Assembly: GCF_000258175.1 (NCBI RefSeq)
Contig: NZ_JH636049.1
Span: 3,511,482 to 3,575,481, forward strand
Direction: 5' to 3'
DNA: 64,000 nt
Source: Saccharomonospora xinjiangensis XJ-54
Lineage (GTDB): Bacteria > Actinomycetota > Actinomycetes > Mycobacteriales > Pseudonocardiaceae
Shown here: positions 3,099 through 23,400 of the stretch, one piece after another
Layout: every line of letters begins with the position of its first letter
Numbering within the stretch: position 1 is the stretch's first letter
Made by a program: the position numbers and the translations under genes
The notes under the pieces: model-generated
Told to the model about the DNA's origin: nothing
Database searches by the model: none
Seen by the model: the letters and a program-made list of their open reading frames with translations, nothing else

Positions 3099-3929
3099 GT
3101 GTCCGAAAGCTTTGAATTCGTGCTCGGCAGTGTGGAGGCCGACATCGTCGGGCAGGCGCTCGGCGTGGACGTCCGCAGGGCTCCGCTGCGGGTGCGCAAC
3201 ACGACCACCGACCCGGCTCGGCGTATTCGGCTGACCGCGATCGTGGGGCAGCGGCTGGCCGATCGCCGCTTGTCCACGAGCACGGCGTTGCACCCGTCGT
3301 TGCGCACGGCATTCGGCCTGTTCGCGAACTTCCGCGTCAGCGTGTCCATCAGCGGGATCGACGGTTTCGGTTCGCCTATCGCGGTCCTCGCGCTCACCGA
3401 CGGGTCGCAGGCGCTGGGAGTGACCCAGAACTCCGGTGCCGACGAACTGCTGTTCTCCCTGTTCTCCGACGACGAACTCGTCGAGGTGCTCGCCGGTGTC
3501 CTGCCTCCGATGCCACCGGCTGAGGGGTCGGCGGTCACCGTTCGCGGCTCAGCCGTCGAACACACCACGGCGTGGGAGGAGCGCAAGGCAGCCGAGCGCG
3601 CCGAGGACGAGGAGGAGACCAGTGCCTTCGGCAACCTCCAGGTGGTGGGCACAGTCGCGGCCCCGCGCCCGCAACGGCGTGGGCATCGCCCCGGCGACGA
3701 GGACCGGCTGCGGCTCGCGCTCTCGGGAAAACGCCTCGGCGGTGGGCACATCACGGTGACAAGGAGCGCCGGCGCCGAGCCTCGCGCGCTGAGCTGGCTC
3801 GATACCGAGCAAGGCCGCTATCTGGTGCATGGCAGGCGCGGTAACGACGAGTTTCTCGCCACGTACGAACCCGCGAGCCGAGCCGACGTCGCGAGCGCTG
3901 TCCGTGACGTGCTCGCCCGCGCGTACTGA
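3099..3929 (+). CDS. espG: ESX secretion-associated chaperone EspG
   Basis: A protein of about 276 residues with the EspG pattern: an N-terminal Phe/Leu start (SESFEFVLGSVEADIVGQAL), then an alternating beta-strand core with RVSVSISG and SPIAVLALTDG, then a region with LFSLFSDDELVEVLAGVLPP. EspG proteins are cytosolic chaperones that bind the tip of a PE/PPE pair and keep it soluble until export by the cognate ESX system. The two genes that follow, a helical protein with YxxxE and a PPE-like protein, are the natural clients. The GTG at 3099 is preferred because the open frame upstream to 2988 has no EspG character; the ribosome-binding site there is weak, so the start could shift a few codons. 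Confidence 0.8.
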   Translation: MSESFEFVLGSVEADIVGQALGVDVRRAPLRVRNTTTDPARRIRLTAIVGQRLADRRLSTSTALHPSLRTAFGLFANFRVSVSISGIDGFGSPIAVLALTDGSQALGVTQNSGADELLFSLFSDDELVEVLAGVLPPMPPAEGSAVTVRGSAVEHTTAWEERKAAERAEDEEETSAFGNLQVVGTVAAPRPQRRGHRPGDEDRLRLALSGKRLGGGHITVTRSAGAEPRALSWLDTEQGRYLVHGRRGNDEFLATYEPASRADVASAVRDVLARAY

Positions 3930-16417: not shown

Positions 16418-18649
16418 TCAGCGTCGTAACGCCCGACCGGGGGAGGTCAGAGCGGTCACCGTGGTCGTGGCCGCAGCGGCGACGGCGGCGGTGCACGCGG
16501 CAACGTGCACCACAACGCCGAGCGAGTCGGGCACGGGTTCCGCCGTCACCGAGAGCAGCGGCGGAACGCAGGCCGTCGCCGCGAGCAGCCAGGCTCCCGG
16601 GGTGCTGGTCGAGCCGGTGCGCACACAGTGCAGCAACGACATCCCGAGCAGGAGATGCACGAGACTCTGCACCGGGTCGAGGAGCAGTCCGGAGAGGACG
16701 TCCGGTTCGGTGTTGAGGGTGGTCAGGGCGAAGCCGAAGACGCCGAGGACGGCGAAGCCGAATCCGGCGGCCGTCGCACCGAGGGACAGCAGCCGATCGA
16801 GCCTGCCCTGCGAGGGGCCCCACGCAGGCAAGGGTGGAGGGCCGTGCCACCCGTGCCACCCATGGCGCTCGATCCAGACGAAGACGAACACGGCAGGCCC
16901 GGCGAGCAGCGCGGTGGCCAGCAGCGCGCGGGACTGCACGGACGGGAAGTCGAATCCCTGTCCGAAATGCTGCGGTAGGTGCACGGCACCCACGAGCAGC
17001 AGCACCGCCGCGAGGAAGAGCAGGTAGAGGCTCATCGGTGCGCGAGAGGCCAGCCCCGCGGCTCTCAGCACCGACGGGCGGCACGCCACAGGAGCGAGCC
17101 TGGTGCGAACCAGCCCGAGCACTGCGATGTGGACCACACCGATCAGCAAGACAGCCGTCGTGGGCCCCGCCAGCGCGGGCGGGGCGTTGCCGCCATCGAC
17201 ACCGAGTACCGAAGGCGGCAGAACCCCCGTCGTGATGCCGATCGTCAGCGCACCGAGACCCGTCCCTGCGGCGATCAGCAGTTGGTGACGGCGCGGGGTG
17301 AACCCGTCGCGGTGAGCGAAAGCGGCCTGCTGCGCCAGCAGCGCGAGGGTCAGCGTGGCGAGATGGTGAGGCCACGACGCTGTGGTCAGCGTGCTCGCCC
17401 ACTCCGCAGCGGCCAGCGCCAGAGCCAGCCCGAACGGCACCATCCTCGGTGCGTACCGGTGCGCCGTCCACATCAGAGGAGTGAGGATCACCGTCAACAG
17501 GTAGAAGCCGAGCAGCCACAGAGGGTGCAGTGCCACGCGGACAACACCTTCGATCGTTGCCGGCGGCACGCTCAGTACCTCCAACCCGAGCGGAACCGCG
17601 AAGGCCACGACGGTGAACACGAGCGTCAGCCGGAGCAACCAGCTGCCCCGGTGTGCGAGGTAGGACCGCACCCCGCCACCCGAACGAGCGCTGGCCTCCC
17701 AGGTGGCCGCGTTGCTGTGACCCGCGGCGAAGAAGAACAGCACCGCCGCCTGCGTCAGCCAGGTCAGTGGCCACAACCACGCGCCGTCCACGCCGGCCCA
17801 GCGAGTCAGCGCCACGGTCGATTCGCCGAGGATGAGGACGGCGAGGCTCATGACGCCGAGAAGCGTCCACGGCTTGGCGGGGACGACCTCGGAACGGTTC
17901 AGGGCAACTCGCCGGGGTTGCTCGGCAGGGCTGTCGAGCAGTGGCTCGCGAAAGCGGTGCCACAGCAGCACCGCGATCACCGCGACACCGGCGAGCAACG
18001 GCGACAACGGCTCCCCGATCGGTGGTCCCCACCTCTGATGCCAGGAGTTCACCACGAGACCGGCGGTGTAGACGGCGGCGACGCTGCGGCACAACTCGGG
18101 TGTGTCCCTTGGATTGACGTCACACGTCGCGTACATGTCCTCCGAGAGCCGGTCGTCGAGCTTCTCCCGGTATCCGGCGTCGAGCGGGCTGCCCTTCTTC
18201 TCCGCGTAGCGAAGGAGGTCGTAGCCGAGGTCGTGAGAACGGCACGGCGTCCCGAAGTCCCATCGCGTGCTGTCGTCGCCCCACGGCGCGGAGCAGCCAC
18301 CACCGACGTGCACGGCTCTTTCAGTGCCGTCGAGCGCGCGCTGCGTCGCGACCTCGACCCCGGTCACGGTCGCGAAGTCGGCGGGAAGAGCAGACACAGC
18401 CTCAGCCGAGCGATGCGGATCGAGGAGTGCTTCAACGGCACGCTCGGCGGCCGTCACGGTGCCGTCGGCAGGCGCGTCGGTGGTACCGGCCGGTGTGGCT
18501 TCCGATCGCGAGGCCAGGAAACCGAAGCCGACCACGAGCAGAACGAGCAGTAGGAGCCGGGCGATGCCGCCCGACTTCCCCCGGCGTGTGTTCGGGGGCC
18601 GTCGGGCAGGCATGCCCACAGGGTGACAGTGTGGGCGCCGCTGTGTCAT
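16418..18649 (-). CDS. Phospholipase A2 domain fused to multi-pass membrane (acyltransferase-like) and DUF4383-like domains
   Basis: A 743-residue fusion. An N-terminal transmembrane helix (31-46) is followed by a bacterial phospholipase A2 domain: C119-S-A-P, then W-D-F-G-T-P-C136-R-S-H139-D140-L-G-Y, which contains the PLA2 catalytic His-Asp pair and matching Cys residues. From about residue 205 come ten or so hydrophobic helices with the look of an integral membrane acyltransferase (motifs GESTVALTRWAGVDGAW, FFFAAGHSN). The last about 130 residues contain a DUF4383-like segment (LGATAAGFGFAVLGVFGFAL and LDPVQSLVHLLLGMSLLHC). PLA2 cleaves phospholipids at sn-2; coupling to an acyl-moving membrane domain suggests lipid remodelling outside the membrane. 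The ATG at 18649 has GGGGA upstream; M13 is an alternative. Confidence 0.75.
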   Translation of the reverse strand: MTQRRPHCHPVGMPARRPPNTRRGKSGGIARLLLLVLLVVGFGFLASRSEATPAGTTDAPADGTVTAAERAVEALLDPHRSAEAVSALPADFATVTGVEVATQRALDGTERAVHVGGGCSAPWGDDSTRWDFGTPCRSHDLGYDLLRYAEKKGSPLDAGYREKLDDRLSEDMYATCDVNPRDTPELCRSVAAVYTAGLVVNSWHQRWGPPIGEPLSPLLAGVAVIAVLLWHRFREPLLDSPAEQPRRVALNRSEVVPAKPWTLLGVMSLAVLILGESTVALTRWAGVDGAWLWPLTWLTQAAVLFFFAAGHSNAATWEASARSGGGVRSYLAHRGSWLLRLTLVFTVVAFAVPLGLEVLSVPPATIEGVVRVALHPLWLLGFYLLTVILTPLMWTAHRYAPRMVPFGLALALAAAEWASTLTTASWPHHLATLTLALLAQQAAFAHRDGFTPRRHQLLIAAGTGLGALTIGITTGVLPPSVLGVDGGNAPPALAGPTTAVLLIGVVHIAVLGLVRTRLAPVACRPSVLRAAGLASRAPMSLYLLFLAAVLLLVGAVHLPQHFGQGFDFPSVQSRALLATALLAGPAVFVFVWIERHGWHGWHGPPPLPAWGPSQGRLDRLLSLGATAAGFGFAVLGVFGFALTTLNTEPDVLSGLLLDPVQSLVHLLLGMSLLHCVRTGSTSTPGAWLLAATACVPPLLSVTAEPVPDSLGVVVHVAACTAAVAAAATTTVTALTSPGRALRR

Positions 18650-18714: not shown

Positions 18715-20103
18715 TCAGGACGGGACAGAGGCGAAGCTCACCCGGTTACGGCCCGACTCCTTGGCCTCGTACACGGCCGTGTCCGCCGCTTGGAGCAGAC
18801 CGTCGAGGTGGTCGGCGTGGCGGGGGAACACGGCAACTCCGATGGAGGCCGTCCTGCCGCTGATGGTGGCCTGCGCTCCCCGCTTGTCGGTGGTGGGTAT
18901 GCGCAACCCCGCGATGGTCGTGCGTATCCGCTCGGCCGCGAGCTCGGCTGCTGAGGTGTCGGCGTCGGGTAGCAGCAAAAGGAACTCCTCACCACCGAAG
19001 CGGCCGACGACGTCGGCGGGCCGGGTCACGCTCGACAAGGCGTTCGCCACCGCCGCGAGCACGTCGTCTCCTGCGGGGTGCCCGAACGTATCATTGATCC
19101 ACTTGAAATGGTCGAGGTCCACCATCAGCACCGAGAGCGTGCTCCCCGCGCGCCGCACCCGGTTGAGCGCGCGTTCGGCCGACTCGGTCCACCCGCGCAT
19201 GTTGAGCAGACCGGTCTTCGGGTCGGTCACCACCGCGTCCTGAAGCTGGTCGATCTCCGCGAGCCGGTTGAACACGACCGTGACGACAGCCATGATCGCC
19301 ACTGCCGGAGGCATGATGACCACGAGCACGGCGGTGACGGCGCCGAGACCTGTCGTGATGGCCTCGAGGAGGTTGTCGGTCTTGCTGCCGAGGACGGTAC
19401 GCACAGTCGGCGACGGTGAACCCAGCGCGAGAATGCCGCCGACGTAGACGATCTGCACTCCCTCGTACACCGCGGCCGTGACGAGCACGAGGCCGAACTC
19501 CCGCAACGAACCCGAGGCGGTCAAGGTGGTCCAGTCCTGCGGTGACATCGCCGTGTAGGTGAGGTTGGCCAGCGCGGCAGCGAGCCCGTGTGCGATGGAC
19601 GAGAAGACGAAGTGGTGCGCGGGCCTGCGCGCGGTGAACCAGCGCTGGAAACGGATGAGGACCACCAGCAGTACCGCGAGTGTGGCGGGGAGCACCAACG
19701 TCGCGGGAAAGACCCAGACCGCGGTGAGGTCGATCAGGACGGTCTTCGTCCGGTTGCGCCGCCGCTCCTCCTGACGGTGCGTGAGCTGGATGTGAACGGT
19801 CGCACCGAGCGCGAGGATCGCGAACTCCAGCCAGTCGGAGCCGACGGGCGCGGGTGCGTTCACAAACGACGCCGTGAAGCCGGGCACCGACAACATCTCC
19901 ATGGTGAGGAGGAACACCACGAAGTGCCGTGGCCTCGTCCACAGCATCCAGTTCCTTGGCAGCAGTGCCCTTCTGCGAGCGCCCGGTCGCGGACGGCCAC
20001 CGGACACGTCGGGAGTCTGCGGCGTCCGATTCACGGCATCGGGACCGGATTCATGGGAGGTGACGAGTTCTGGCGACGGCCGATCCTGGGGAATGAGCGG
20101 CAC
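18715..20103 (-). CDS. Membrane-bound diguanylate cyclase (GGDEF protein)
   Basis: A 462-residue protein. About eight hydrophobic helices occupy residues 60-290 as an uncharacterised membrane sensor, then a linker VFNRLAEIDQLQDAVVTDPKTGLLN leads into the GGDEF domain. The active site reads G-G-E-E-F at about 370-374 (an accepted GGDEF variant), and an RxxD inhibitory site (RPAD) lies five residues upstream, so product inhibition by cyclic di-GMP is likely. No EAL domain is present. GTG at 20103 has GAGAGGA 7 bases upstream; the longer TTG start at 20163 is rejected. It precedes the intergenic region with the hexapeptide minigenes. Confidence 0.88.
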   Translation of the reverse strand: MPLIPQDRPSPELVTSHESGPDAVNRTPQTPDVSGGRPRPGARRRALLPRNWMLWTRPRHFVVFLLTMEMLSVPGFTASFVNAPAPVGSDWLEFAILALGATVHIQLTHRQEERRRNRTKTVLIDLTAVWVFPATLVLPATLAVLLVVLIRFQRWFTARRPAHHFVFSSIAHGLAAALANLTYTAMSPQDWTTLTASGSLREFGLVLVTAAVYEGVQIVYVGGILALGSPSPTVRTVLGSKTDNLLEAITTGLGAVTAVLVVIMPPAVAIMAVVTVVFNRLAEIDQLQDAVVTDPKTGLLNMRGWTESAERALNRVRRAGSTLSVLMVDLDHFKWINDTFGHPAGDDVLAAVANALSSVTRPADVVGRFGGEEFLLLLPDADTSAAELAAERIRTTIAGLRIPTTDKRGAQATISGRTASIGVAVFPRHADHLDGLLQAADTAVYEAKESGRNRVSFASVPS

Positions 20104-20347
20104 TCGCCGATCCTCTCGCGTGTGTCGGTCACGTGGACGGCCGACTCCGTGACGGTCCGGCAACGGCGACCGGTTCGGCTCGGTCCACTACGGGACAAGG
20201 CATCGTCAGTGATCGGTATCATCGCACTGCACCGGAAATTCGTGTAGGCGAGGCCGCCGGACGGTAGTGTCGGACGGTGCGGATGTGTTGTTCTGTACGT
20301 GTTTTCGCCGTCCGCACGAACTCGGAAGCGAGCGGAGGTGTTCTCCC

Positions 20348-20368
20348 TTGTCCGACCGCGACTTCTGA
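20348..20368 (+). CDS. Hexapeptide minigene copy 1 (MSDRDF)
   Basis: TTG start, codons for S-D-R-D-F, then TGA. GGAGG ends 9 bases before the start. No longer in-frame start exists upstream. It is the first of three copies with the same design; the reading frame is supported by comparison between copies, not by length. Confidence 0.5.
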   Translation: MSDRDF

Positions 20369-20412
20369 TCTAGAACTGACACATCGACGACGACACCCTG
20401 GGGAGGTGCCTC

Positions 20413-20433
20413 GTGTCCGACCGTGACTTCTGA
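20413..20433 (+). CDS. Hexapeptide minigene copy 2 (MSDRDF)
   Basis: GTG start, S-D-R-D-F, TGA, with GGGGAGG 6 bases upstream. The Arg codon is CGT here and CGC in the other two copies, a synonymous difference. After the stop the same frame runs through a Gly/Phe-rich 11-codon stretch to TAG; it is not shared by the other copies. The UUCG hairpin at 20473-20492 follows. Confidence 0.5.
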   Translation: MSDRDF

Positions 20434-20472
20434 GGCTTCTGTGGTTTCGGAGACTTCGGAGGCTTCTAGGCG

Positions 20473-20500
20473 GCAGTCACTTCGGCGACTGCGGTCTTTT
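20473..20500 (+). terminator. UUCG-loop hairpin with T-rich tail (intrinsic terminator or attenuator)
   Basis: Stem GCAGTC/GACTGC with an inner C-TTCG-G tetraloop is followed by GGTCTTTT. It lies 39 bases after copy 2 of the hexapeptide minigene, on the same strand, and separates copies 1-2 from copy 3. Confidence 0.6.
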
Positions 20501-20603
20501 CGTTGTCCTTCTTGGTTCTTCGTGCCTGTTCGACGTCCATGAGGCGGTGTCGGTTCCCGGTGAGGACGACATCGTCGAAGCCCGTCGAGAGGAGGTGTTC
20601 GCC

Positions 20604-20624
20604 GTGACCGACCGCGACTTCTGA
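20604..20624 (+). CDS. Hexapeptide minigene copy 3 (MTDRDF)
   Basis: GTG start, T-D-R-D-F, TGA, with AGAGGAGG 8 bases upstream. Ser is replaced by Thr, a conservative change, while the D-R-D-F codons and the stop are kept. A second, partial GACTTCTGA follows directly. No plus-strand gene lies downstream nearby. Confidence 0.5.
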   Translation: MTDRDF

Positions 20625-20906
20625 CGACTTCTGACACCGCGCGGCACTGTCGTCACAGGGAAAAGGGGTCGGGGGGCGTGAACGGCTGACGTATCGGTGC
20701 GTCAGCCGGAGGATCATGGTTCACACATCGTCGATTCCCGCTTTCTCCACGGCGGCAAGGCTGCTGCCGAATATGTGCGTTCCTACTGTCGAATAGCCTG
20801 TTTCGGCGGCTTCACGCCGTGAGGGCACCGGCACAATCAGGTGGTCGTTTCAGGTGGTCGTCGTGACGATCGCCGTCGTCACTGTCGTGCCTGGAGTGCC
20901 CGGTCT

Positions 20907-22115
20907 CTAATTTGCCTTCTGTACCCGCGCCCAGGAGATCGCCACCGGGATCGTGAGGAGCACACCGGCCGCTCCTGCGAGTGCGATAGCGGTCGTCGCG
21001 GACCCGACGAGGTCCGCGACCACACCGCCGAGTGCGACGCCGAGGCCCTGCGCCACCCGGAGCCCCGTGCGGTAGACGCCGCCCGCTCCACCACGCTTGT
21101 CGTTGGGCACCCAGGTGATGAAGGTGGCCCCGACGGAGATGATGTAGGCACCCGCTGCTCCCGCGAGCATCAGCAGTAACAACGCGAACGGCAGAGTGGG
21201 TGTCGCTGCGAAGCCGACGAGGATCGCGGCGGCGAGTGTGGCGAGCACTCCCATCACTCGCCTGCGGTTCTCGGGGGACACGAATCGCGACAGCAGGAAC
21301 GTACCGAGGATGAAGCCGACGGGGTCGGCGGCGAGCAGCCAGCCGACAGCACGTTCGGAGGCGCCGATCTGGTCGGCGAGGGGTGCGGCGAGGCCCTCCG
21401 GAATCACCGCGAGCCCCACCAGCCACGACAGAGCGAGCAGAACGCGTAGGCGCCGCTGTCCCCAAACCCAGCGCACGGCGCTGAACCAGCCGTCGTCCGG
21501 GTTGCCTGCGGCAGGGCGCTGCCGAACCCACAGTTGCACGAGCAGAGCCGCGACAAGGAAGGTCAGGGCATCGATCGCGAGCGCCCACGACGCGCCGAAC
21601 GACGTGACCAACAGCCCGCCACCGGCCAGCCCGACGAGCATGGCGATGTTGCTGGTGATGCCCCGAAGATCCTGACTGCGCAGGTACAGTCCGTCGTCGC
21701 TGAACACCTCCCTGGTCAAGGCGTTCTGCGCGGCGTTGGCGGGCGCACCGGCGAGGCGGGCCAGCACGACGAGTACGCACAGCGGCGCCAGCGGCATCCC
21801 TGGCACCGCCATGGCACCCACCAGCCCGGCCTGCACGAGGGCGGAGACCACGAGGACTGTCTTGCGCGGTAGCCGGTCGGCGATCTGTGCCAGTCCCAGG
21901 CCGCCTGCGAGGGCGGGAAGGAAGGTGAGGGCGTAGACGCCCGCGGCCCAGAGCGCCGAGCCGGTGCGGCTGTACACGACGATGGACAGGGCCACCGTCG
22001 TCAAGTGATCGCCGAGAACCGACTGTGCCTCCGCGATCCACAGCGCCCGGAACTCGCGGTTGCGGATCGCGTCGGTCATCCGCGCCGCTGTCGTGGTAGC
22101 TACCAACGTGGTCAC
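20907..22115 (-). CDS. MFS transporter (12-helix, macrolide-efflux/enterobactin-exporter-like)
   Basis: A 402-residue protein with 12 hydrophobic helices and an MFS pattern: NREFRALWIAEAQSVLGDHLTTVALSI at the start, then GLAQIADRLPRKTVLVVSAL (loop 2-3 motif A). This layout is common in actinomycete drug or siderophore exporters; the substrate cannot be read. GTG at 22115 lies in a short context without a clear ribosome-binding site; the ATG at 22079 (M13) is an alternative and would place a 12-bp palindrome at 22094-22105 in the leader. No operon partner is visible. Confidence 0.85.
   Translation of the reverse strand: MTTLVATTTAARMTDAIRNREFRALWIAEAQSVLGDHLTTVALSIVVYSRTGSALWAAGVYALTFLPALAGGLGLAQIADRLPRKTVLVVSALVQAGLVGAMAVPGMPLAPLCVLVVLARLAGAPANAAQNALTREVFSDDGLYLRSQDLRGITSNIAMLVGLAGGGLLVTSFGASWALAIDALTFLVAALLVQLWVRQRPAAGNPDDGWFSAVRWVWGQRRLRVLLALSWLVGLAVIPEGLAAPLADQIGASERAVGWLLAADPVGFILGTFLLSRFVSPENRRRVMGVLATLAAAILVGFAATPTLPFALLLLMLAGAAGAYIISVGATFITWVPNDKRGGAGGVYRTGLRVAQGLGVALGGVVADLVGSATTAIALAGAAGVLLTIPVAISWARVQKAN
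22094..22105. promoter_or_regulatory. Perfect 12-bp palindrome at MFS start
   Basis: TGGTAGCTACCA reads the same on both strands and lies at the very start of the MFS gene, or upstream of it if translation starts at M13. It could be a regulator binding site. Confidence 0.4.
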
Positions 22116-22464
22116 CTTGTGCCGAATCGGTTACGTATTGCGACGTCGGCGCCCACGTTAGTGTTGATCTACCGGGTGTGGACCCGACCGAGGGACGTTG
22201 CCCGGATCGGACTAACGCCGTCGCAAGGCGCCTTCGCGCGGACTTCGGGCCGGCTGCCTGCGCGGTTGAGTCCCCGTGAACGGCGGGCTGTATCCCGCGG
22301 CCGATCGGCGACCACTCGTTCGGCGCAGTCGCTCCACCGTTCGTCGCGGACGTCTCCGCCGGTGCCACCGAGTGGACCGAGACTGACTGGGACCGGCCTG
22401 GTGCGACACCGGGCCGGCTCGGACGACGGACGAGCCCGCGCTCGCGGTGGGGAGACGAAAGCGA
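22116..22464. other. Divergent intergenic region, nothing identified
   Basis: About 350 bases separate the MFS and SDR genes. The stretch is GC-rich and shows no long repeat or RNA-like structure; it presumably holds the two promoters. Confidence 0.4.
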
Positions 22465-23400
22465 ATGAACGGACAACTCGACGGCAAAGCCGTCGTCGTG
22501 ACCGGAGCAGGCAGGGGCCTGGGGGAGGCCTTCGCGACGCACGCCGCACAGGCCGGTGCGCTGGTGGTGGTCAACGACATCGACGCGGATCTGGCGCAGC
22601 GGACGACCGCGAACATCACGACGCACGGGGGCAGAGCCGTCGCGAGCGGACACGACGTCGCCGACCCGGCACAGGCGGCGGCGCTCGTCGAGCTCTGCGT
22701 CACGGAGTTCGGCCGTATCGACGGGCTGGTCAACAACGCGGGCCTGAACTACGAGGCCGTCTCGTGGCACGACGATCCCGATGACGTCCGCAAGCTCGTG
22801 GAGACCAACGTGCTCGGGGTGATCTACGTCGGGACGGCGGCGGCGAGGGCGATGGTGGACAGCGGCCGTGGAGGGGCGATCGTCAACATCTCGTCCGGTG
22901 CTTCGCTGGGGCAGCGCAGGCTGGCCACGTATTCGGCGAGCAAGGGCGCTGTGGCGTCGCTGACCTACTCGTGGGCGCTCGACATGGAGGAGGTCGGTGT
23001 CCGGGTCAACGCGGTGTGCCCGCTCGCGCACACCCGGATGGTCTGGAAATCGGAGCGTTCGCTGCGGAACTGCCCGCCGGAGCGGACGCCTGCGCGGATC
23101 GCGCCGCTGGTGCTGTTCCTCCTCGCCGACGATTCGCGTGGCATCACCGGGCAGCTCATTCGCTGCAACGGCCCGGAGTTGCACATCATGGGCCAGCCGT
23201 ACGTGAAGCAGCCCGTGCTGCGTCGTGAGGTGTGGGACAGCGAGAGTGTGCGGCGGGCGTTCGGCGAGGTCTTCGCCGCGCACCTCGAACCGTACGGGCT
23301 GGAGAAGCGGGTTCCGCCGACGCTGAGGGAGTGGACCGGCACGGCTCCACTCACGGCGTCAGGGACGCGGCCGTCACCCTGGCCCCTTCGCAGCGCCTGA
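22465..23400 (+). CDS. Short-chain dehydrogenase/reductase (SDR family)
   Basis: A 311-residue SDR. The cofactor motif TGAGRGLGEA is at about 14-23, followed by an acidic residue after strand 2 (VVVNDIDA, suggesting NAD(H)), then NNAG near 93, Ser in NISSGAS, and the catalytic YSASKG. The tail beyond 250 is longer than in the core family and may reach a neighbouring subunit. The product and pathway are not evident; the convergent acyl-CoA ligase suggests lipid metabolism. ATG at 22465 has GGGGAG 10 bases upstream; the start at 22447 is rejected. Confidence 0.88.
   Translation: MNGQLDGKAVVVTGAGRGLGEAFATHAAQAGALVVVNDIDADLAQRTTANITTHGGRAVASGHDVADPAQAAALVELCVTEFGRIDGLVNNAGLNYEAVSWHDDPDDVRKLVETNVLGVIYVGTAAARAMVDSGRGGAIVNISSGASLGQRRLATYSASKGAVASLTYSWALDMEEVGVRVNAVCPLAHTRMVWKSERSLRNCPPERTPARIAPLVLFLLADDSRGITGQLIRCNGPELHIMGQPYVKQPVLRREVWDSESVRRAFGEVFAAHLEPYGLEKRVPPTLREWTGTAPLTASGTRPSPWPLRSA

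Follow-up and report, generated by a model that had tools for sequence, protein, structure and literature searches.

Tandem hexapeptide minigenes beside MFS transporter and membrane diguanylate cyclase genes: a candidate peptide-signalling module in Saccharomonospora xinjiangensis and its order

Within the 64,000-nucleotide stretch of the Saccharomonospora xinjiangensis XJ-54 genome analysed here (the window), three minute open reading frames, each behind a strong ribosome-binding site (SD), code for nearly the same six residues, and the question that this locus raises is what such a repeated minigene may be for. Rereading of the sequence showed that all three units, with their SDs, starts and codons, lie where the preliminary description had placed them. 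Copy 1 (20348..20368, plus strand, TTG TCC GAC CGC GAC TTC TGA, MSDRDF) is preceded by GGAGGTG at 20334..20340 and is also found in the seven other Saccharomonospora loci aligned. Copy 2 (20413..20433, plus strand, GTG TCC GAC CGT GAC TTC TGA, MSDRDF) follows the same SD at 20402..20408, and copy 3 (20604..20624, plus strand, GTG ACC GAC CGC GAC TTC TGA, MTDRDF) that at 20591..20597; the SDs were identified from the sequence and by pattern search, and copies 2 and 3 additionally by alignment. The counterpart of copy 3 ends with TAA in locus L005 and with TAG in L007. The spacers of 9, 6 and 8 nucleotides reported earlier are correct if measured from the end of GGAGG and not of GGAGGTG. The pattern GGAGG-N4-12-DTG-NCC-GAC-CGN-GAC-TTC-TGA matched three times in the window vs 0 in 100 dinucleotide-preserving shuffles, and the strict minigene pattern matched three times in the whole 4.78-Mb genome, all three being the window copies.

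The array lies on the strand opposite to both flanking genes, a TM-GGDEF diguanylate cyclase gene (18715..20103, minus strand; Pfam GGDEF, E 1e-45) and an efflux-type MFS transporter gene (20907..22115, minus strand; Pfam MFS_1 and MFS_3). The neighbour genes of the window code for GGDEF, MFS, SDR, AMP-ligase, phospholipase A2-like and LytR-type proteins. The nearest plus-strand gene downstream is the SDR gene, which starts at about 22447-22471, so that the earlier statement that no plus-strand gene follows for 1.8 kb, and hence that no visible operon is led by the minigenes, holds. The UUCG-type hairpin with a T-rich tail noticed between copies 2 and 3 was located at 20473..20492 (plus strand) by terminator scan and alignment; two terminator-like sites were found in 20050-20950 and 0.8 were expected in shuffles. 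Nothing corresponding to this stretch occurs in the seven other Saccharomonospora loci of the alignment, in which copies 1 and 2 and the spacer between them align well while the spacer before copy 3 does not. Across 20434-20590 the start-to-start distance from copy 2 to copy 3 is 191 nt in the window vs 84-119 nt in the seven relatives, and copy 3 may be uncoupled from copies 1 and 2 in this strain.

Alignment also revealed a conserved block lying between copy 1 and the cyclase gene (20207..20252, GTGATCGGTATCATC...), a candidate promoter or operator region; the scan of 20050-20950 returned 0 sigma-70-like promoters. No BldD-like box with at most one mismatch was present in 20081-20950. The sequence directly after copy 1 (20369-20381, TCTAGAACTGACA) is kept in form in the relatives and is similar to the sequence that succeeds a degenerate first copy in L051 and in L061.

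The relaxed minigene pattern matched 21 stretches among 84,980 species genomes. Eighteen of these belong to one actinobacterial group (Saccharomonospora, Prauserella, Haloechinothrix, Thermocrispum, Amycolatopsis and an actinomycete MAG), and the remaining three, isolated hits, come from Cohnella, a Eubacterium MAG and a Planctomycetota MAG. The pattern GGAGG-N3-13-DTG-NNN-GAY-CGN-GAY-TTY-TGA was found in 8 of 12 genus members and, at family level, in 30 of 249 genomes (7 of 46 genera), the reversed control giving 0 in the same 249 genomes. A shorter pattern without the SD, which ends in TRR and so also admits TGG, matched in 17/298 genomes of the order (reversed control, 1 match in 298), and its only matches outside the family were three singles, two of them with the TGG end. 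The motif thus recurs in related actinobacteria. As to whether copies recur in tandem at non-orthologous places, which the preliminary description had asked, the DRDF form occupies one orthologous locus, while arrays of different peptides are found at paralogous loci.

At the orthologous locus, relatives carry 1-10 copies of clade-specific versions in the same place (MxDRDF, MxGRDF, MxSRDF, MxNRDF and MSDRAW). Thirty-four family genomes lacking a match to the SD-containing DRDF pattern were queried with the cyclase, and close relatives of this protein were reached. Their loci hold MxGRDF in six copies (L095, L096), M(S/T)GRDF in two (L097), MSSRDF in ten (L099), MxNRDF in four (L100, L101, L103, L104), MxSRDF likewise in four (L102), MSDRAW also in four (L105) and M(S/T)DRDW in two (L106); in L098 the sequence is masked at the expected array position. 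Several Prauserella loci hold a single DRDF copy only. Among the DRDF loci codon 2 may be TCC, TCT, TCG, ACC, ACT, GCC, GCT, CGC, CGT, TTC, AAC or TAC, the Asp and Arg codons show synonymous swaps, any of ATG, GTG and TTG may serve as start, and TAA or TAG ends some copies. Residue 3 (D, G, S or N before RDF) changes jointly in nearly all copies of a genome while residue 2 varies within it, which points to a product with an important C-terminal core. The exceptions to the uniform core are degenerate copies and the five-residue VSRDF of L168-L170. One degenerate copy, TTG TCT GGC TGT GAC TTC TGA (MSGCDF), lies on the array strand of L051 before the copy at 3620; its SD is intact and four intact copies follow it.

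Comparison of copies within arrays gave the same picture at the codon level. From the 57 loci given, 55 arrays were obtained, L025 and L097 yielding no cluster by the criterion though both hold minigenes, and 52 arrays were codon-tested. Differences over the final four codons numbered 188 synonymous and 44 non-synonymous (52 arrays, 187 copies, 309 pairs), against 1200:5964 expected from uniform single changes; for the codon preceding these four the ratio was 60:116. Counted per array (55 arrays x four codons), synonymous variation occurred 55 times and non-synonymous variation 3 times. The 187 copies start with ATG (82), GTG (81) or TTG (24) and stop with TGA (153), TAA (18) or TAG (16). The test is not wholly free of ascertainment, because residue similarity had guided the choice of arrays; the pairs were then formed with no residue criterion. 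That selection acts on the minigene peptide is well supported by these comparisons. The preliminary description had proposed that translation of the six codons is selected and had offered a peptide product among its options; start and stop swaps, synonymous change and concerted change within genomes now lend good support to this. It had read the array alone, and the association with the two flanking minus-strand genes described below was not foreseen.

Arrays or pairs were present in 9 of 57 cyclase loci read (L108-L164), with the peptides MRDKIW, MREKIW, MRNRAW, xRDREY, MRNRDN, MR(A/R)DRDM, MxNRDS, MxSRDN and MRNREY. An order-wide search found arrays in 12/26 loci, 9 of the 12 being in two other families, where the peptides are MNNHGW, MNNWSW, MNNVTWR, MSNHGW (two loci), MRGWHWTR, MTVVNWS (seven copies), MSNWGWGK and MNSWHI. 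Searches starting from the MFS protein newly reached MQHLEWQ, MQQHVEWS and MLxNWRWP. Single minigenes upstream of other cyclase genes code for MRGQTW, MRDNNW, MRSNDWH, MRDSNW and MQNQGWNQGW, among others. The paralogue peptides are mostly of 6-8 residues and quite unlike DRDF; many have an aromatic residue in or close to the C-terminal position, though not all (MRNRDN and MRNRDS, for example, have none). The arrays comprise 2-10 copies and 26 different cores, and in L209 and L210 two complete modules, each of its own peptide type (NNHGW and LxNWRWP), follow one another in tandem. The cluster criterion also yielded two evidently spurious short pairs, in L148 and, as LRCGG, in L189. Copies recur within a narrow range of distances (median 73 nt; 60-85 nt in 122 of 144 cases), though the spacers look poorly conserved.

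To measure the association with the cyclase gene, the 500 nt preceding each TM-GGDEF gene were scanned. Minigenes of 5-9 residues with a strong SD were present on the divergent strand in 45 of 93 such regions (91 minigenes in total) and on the other strand in 1/93, and shuffles preserving base composition only gave a mean of 2.5 regions with a minigene and a maximum of 7. No residue criterion was used, so that this test is free of residue-based ascertainment. The 93 regions derive from 95 cyclase entries, L116 and L118 being dropped for having less than 300 nt of upstream DNA; L119, L144 and L186, for which no GGDEF ORF was obtained, were left out. Three loci are present twice (L109/L125, L110/L135, L124/L164), and removal of the repeats gave 44/90 vs 1/90. 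A few of the 45 positives look doubtful, e.g. VIVATREG and VSDRVEP. With seven array loci of weaker SD the count rises to 52/93; neither an array nor a strong-SD minigene was present at the other 41/93 entries, which counts against the module. Elsewhere in three module-bearing genomes, 400 kb of DNA contained no array, and minigenes of this type numbered 0.011 per 500 nt of strand. Because the arrays were mostly found through the cyclase, arrays may also be associated with other genes.

The MFS gene is the second partner. The window protein matched H+ antiporter and EntS models in NCBIfam, both below cut-offs. A homologous MFS gene was present in 14 of 20 neighbourhoods (6-15 kb) of minigene-bearing paralogues and missing from 6, these 20 loci being a chosen selection among minigene-bearing loci. 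When the MFS subfamily (E up to 2.2e-28) was followed in 21 genomes, 33 of 43 genes lay within 5 kb of a TM-GGDEF gene, by hand count among the matches listed. The remaining 10 were not near a listed TM-GGDEF gene, and the four of these that were read had neither an array nor a GGDEF motif within 1.5 kb. From the MFS side, an array was found in 18 of the 30 loci fetched. The MFS and GGDEF genes lie on one strand in 37/39 pairs less than 1.5 kb apart, a count in which a gene of adjoining modules enters more than once.

For 28 arrays in module loci the MFS gene was in the locus in 24, and the array lay between MFS and cyclase genes in 22 by script and additionally in L244 by hand, the script having put that locus under 'other' solely on account of a cyclase frame that stays open far upstream. 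Exceptions are L203, with the MFS gene beyond the far side of the cyclase, and L194, with array and MFS gene on one strand. Past the array, as read along its strand, the first ORF opposes it in 23/28 and is co-directional in 5/28 (L194, L200, L202, L203, L207), and the MFS gene accounts for 22 of the 23 opposing cases (L242 by hand, where the next-listed ORF overlaps that gene).

Conservation in 15 aligned orthologues places the start of the window cyclase at the GTG at 20103, while the longest ORF extends to 20163. It has GGEEF and an RxxD site and is a predicted diguanylate cyclase. GG(D/E)EF is intact in 41/44 module-locus cyclases and the RxxD site in 40/44; the homologues of L195, L200 and L250 are without GG(D/E)EF, and these may be receptors that have no synthesis activity. 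The N-terminal domain of the window cyclase, of about 240 residues with at least four hydrophobic segments, had no Pfam match above cut-off. MASE9 (PF20972) was matched by 2 of 21 such domains (best E 1e-7) and, at E 0.1, by none of the other 19, the window protein included. The module cyclases resemble MASE-type sensors in that an N-terminal membrane domain precedes GGDEF; we know of no ligand for MASE9, and no paper on it was found in the open-access literature searched. A sequence profile of the sensor domain had no solved structure at E 1.

A single-sequence search with the sensor domain in 296 genomes of the phylum retrieved the own genome only, and the profile retrieved weak relatives in 62 of 346 genomes of the phylum (own included), some of their loci containing HD-GYP, EAL or GGDEF motifs. 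There were 0 arrays in the 29 weak-relative loci read, 3 of which had scattered, unrelated single candidates; within this sample the module is therefore confined to the order. Plasmid-borne spread was considered and rejected, the cyclase having no match at E 1e-40 in 72,556 plasmid records.

The three components covary. Mantel tests on 32 modules (the records with an MFS protein, of 38) gave correlations of peptide distance with the sensor domain of 0.52, with the MFS protein of 0.52 and with the GGDEF domain of 0.41. Given the GGDEF domain, the peptide correlated with the sensor at 0.37 and with the MFS protein at 0.35 (0/2000 permutations each), while with the GGDEF domain given the sensor it correlated at -0.10. 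The MFS protein correlated with the sensor given GGDEF at 0.59 and with GGDEF given the sensor at 0.35. Peptide sequence thus tracks the sensor domain and not the catalytic domain, the partial correlations perhaps partly reflecting resolution because the sensor evolves faster than GGDEF (mean distance 0.70 vs 0.54). In all of these tests related modules are non-independent by shared ancestry and the peptides have few residues.

We propose that minigene array, MFS gene and TM-GGDEF gene form a three-part module, apparently undescribed, and that the window holds one case of it, in which an unleadered ribosomal peptide signal would be exported by the MFS protein and sensed by the TM-GGDEF protein; from the sequence evidence we put the probability of this reading at roughly 0.6. 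An RNA transcribed away from the cyclase gene would bear the tandem minigenes, and translation in vivo from the strong ribosome-binding site of each would give several copies of M(S/T)DRDF per transcript, the many copies serving dose. A leader would be superfluous for a peptide encoded at signal size from the outset, and the last 4-5 residues would be the functional core. The adjoining MFS transporter would move the peptide out of the cell; to our knowledge no peptide export of such kind is known for this MFS group. The N-terminal membrane domain of the adjoining cyclase would bind the peptide and c-di-GMP synthesis would be altered, with output possibly on development or secondary metabolism.

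For the order as a whole we lean, slightly beyond even odds, towards a new class of peptide communication with leaderless signals of 5-10 residues, tandem minigenes, a dedicated MFS exporter and a membrane cyclase as reader. Each module having its own peptide, transporter and sensor matches the expectation for private peptide signals, and some genomes would operate two or more such private channels in parallel. If true, the module would provide a ligand class for membrane diguanylate cyclases without known signals, and a direct route by which peptide concentration is converted into c-di-GMP. In actinomycetes c-di-GMP governs development and natural-product formation (PMC4151990, PMC7026642). 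Because each module specifies its own peptide, the idea is testable with synthetic peptides. Genes of 21-30 nt are missed by annotation and are detectable as tandem SD-minigene arrays. Literature searches, largely open-access, found no description of tandem minigene arrays, of such peptides or of peptide-cyclase systems.

Covariation of peptide, sensor and transporter would equally be expected if the peptides had an intracellular role, binding the adjacent cyclase or MFS protein in an autoregulatory manner and without a cell-to-cell step, and 6-8 residues are too short for a classical secretion signal. Such an intracellular role leaves the efflux-type MFS partner without an obvious function, and the strong diversification of peptides between modules resembles private signals; we consider it unlikely. 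That the minigenes encode precursors of RiPPs or antimicrobials, similar to microcin C or biarylitides, with the MFS protein for export or self-protection and the cyclase as regulator, is distinctly unlikely. The frequency of aromatic residues at or near the C-terminus would fit, and biarylitide precursors (bytA; P450-crosslinked RiPPs) show that RiPP precursors of five residues exist, encoded by 18-bp ORFs that evade gene finders (PMC13417212). The recurrent partners here are, however, MFS and cyclase genes. A scan of 97 of the 127 outer-neighbour ORFs of 20 other loci, the remaining ORFs being omitted by hand, gave no recurrent maturation or tailoring enzyme among the best 25 of 157 matched families, the commonest family occurring in 4/97 and any family outside these 25 in at most 2/97. 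A RiPP with a tailoring enzyme was rejected on this tally. The passages of PMC13417212 consulted describe no tandem repetition of identical precursor copies for biarylitides.

The options of ribosome stalling, ribosome sponge and small RNA, also raised in the preliminary description, are disfavoured because the peptide and not the RNA is kept and because it changes with the neighbouring sensor and transporter. In these, translation of six codons would stall or drop ribosomes and thereby control the transcript or sequester ribosomes or tRNA. Very strong SDs on minimal ORFs, conserved residues adjoining the stop as in an arrest peptide, the terminator-like hairpin of the window and the co-directional gene after 5/28 arrays speak for a regulatory RNA or arrest/decoy element of this kind. 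Its probability is nevertheless very low, since 23/28 arrays run towards a gene of the opposite strand (the MFS gene in 22 of these), stops and synonymous codons change freely and the peptides are entirely different among modules, following sensor and transporter. Rfam gave seven hits in 19900-22500, all far below gathering scores, on which grounds a small RNA was rejected. A leader peptide was rejected as well, no co-directional gene being within 1.8 kb in the window, yet such a gene is next in 5/28 arrays elsewhere. Functionless tandem duplication, whether as decaying repeats or as chance, could account for degenerate copies such as that of L051; it has practically no likelihood in view of conservation across genera with synonymous change, the 0 expected by shuffles, the empty reversed-pattern control in 249 family genomes, the minigene enrichment in upstream regions and the codon test.

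Several known systems share parts of this arrangement. The minigenes resemble biarylitides as ribosomal peptides from minimal ORFs and differ from them in having 1-10 copies, mostly 6-8 residues, and MFS and membrane diguanylate cyclase genes as partners. They follow no five-codon rule, 6-8 residues being usual, the aromatic residue is not universal, and P450 was absent from the window neighbours and from the best 25 of the 157 families matched by the 97 outer-neighbour ORFs, so that they do not belong to that class. Microcin C derives from mccA, which encodes a leaderless heptapeptide, and is exported by the MFS protein MccC. The very short leaderless peptide and the putative MFS exporter are alike, while the tandem copies, the cyclase partner and the different peptide in each module are unlike it, and a ThiF/MccB-like adenylating enzyme was not among the same best 25 of 157 families.

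In Phr/Rap, PapR/PlcR, Agr and arbitrium systems short diversified peptides are encoded beside receptor genes and covary with the receptor. These Gram-positive pheromones are cut from longer precursors and are read by cytosolic RRNPP proteins or histidine kinases. The peptides here are likewise short, diversified and covarying with the sensor of an adjacent putative receptor, but they are coded at 6-8 residues already and the putative receptor is a diguanylate cyclase. The proposed module would thus work like peptide pheromones but is not a member of those families, because the receptor type differs; no RRNPP receptor or AgrC-type kinase lies beside the window array or among the best 25 of 157 neighbour families. 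Lambda bar minigenes and ribosome-acting E-peptides also consist of an SD and an ORF of few codons, and act by peptidyl-tRNA drop-off or on the ribosome, whereas here conserved peptides covary with membrane proteins.

Beyond the cyclase gene, the minus strand at 16418-18649 encodes a 743-residue protein in which a prokaryotic phospholipase A2 domain (PF09056) is followed by a long stretch free of Pfam matches, an unusual-looking fusion.
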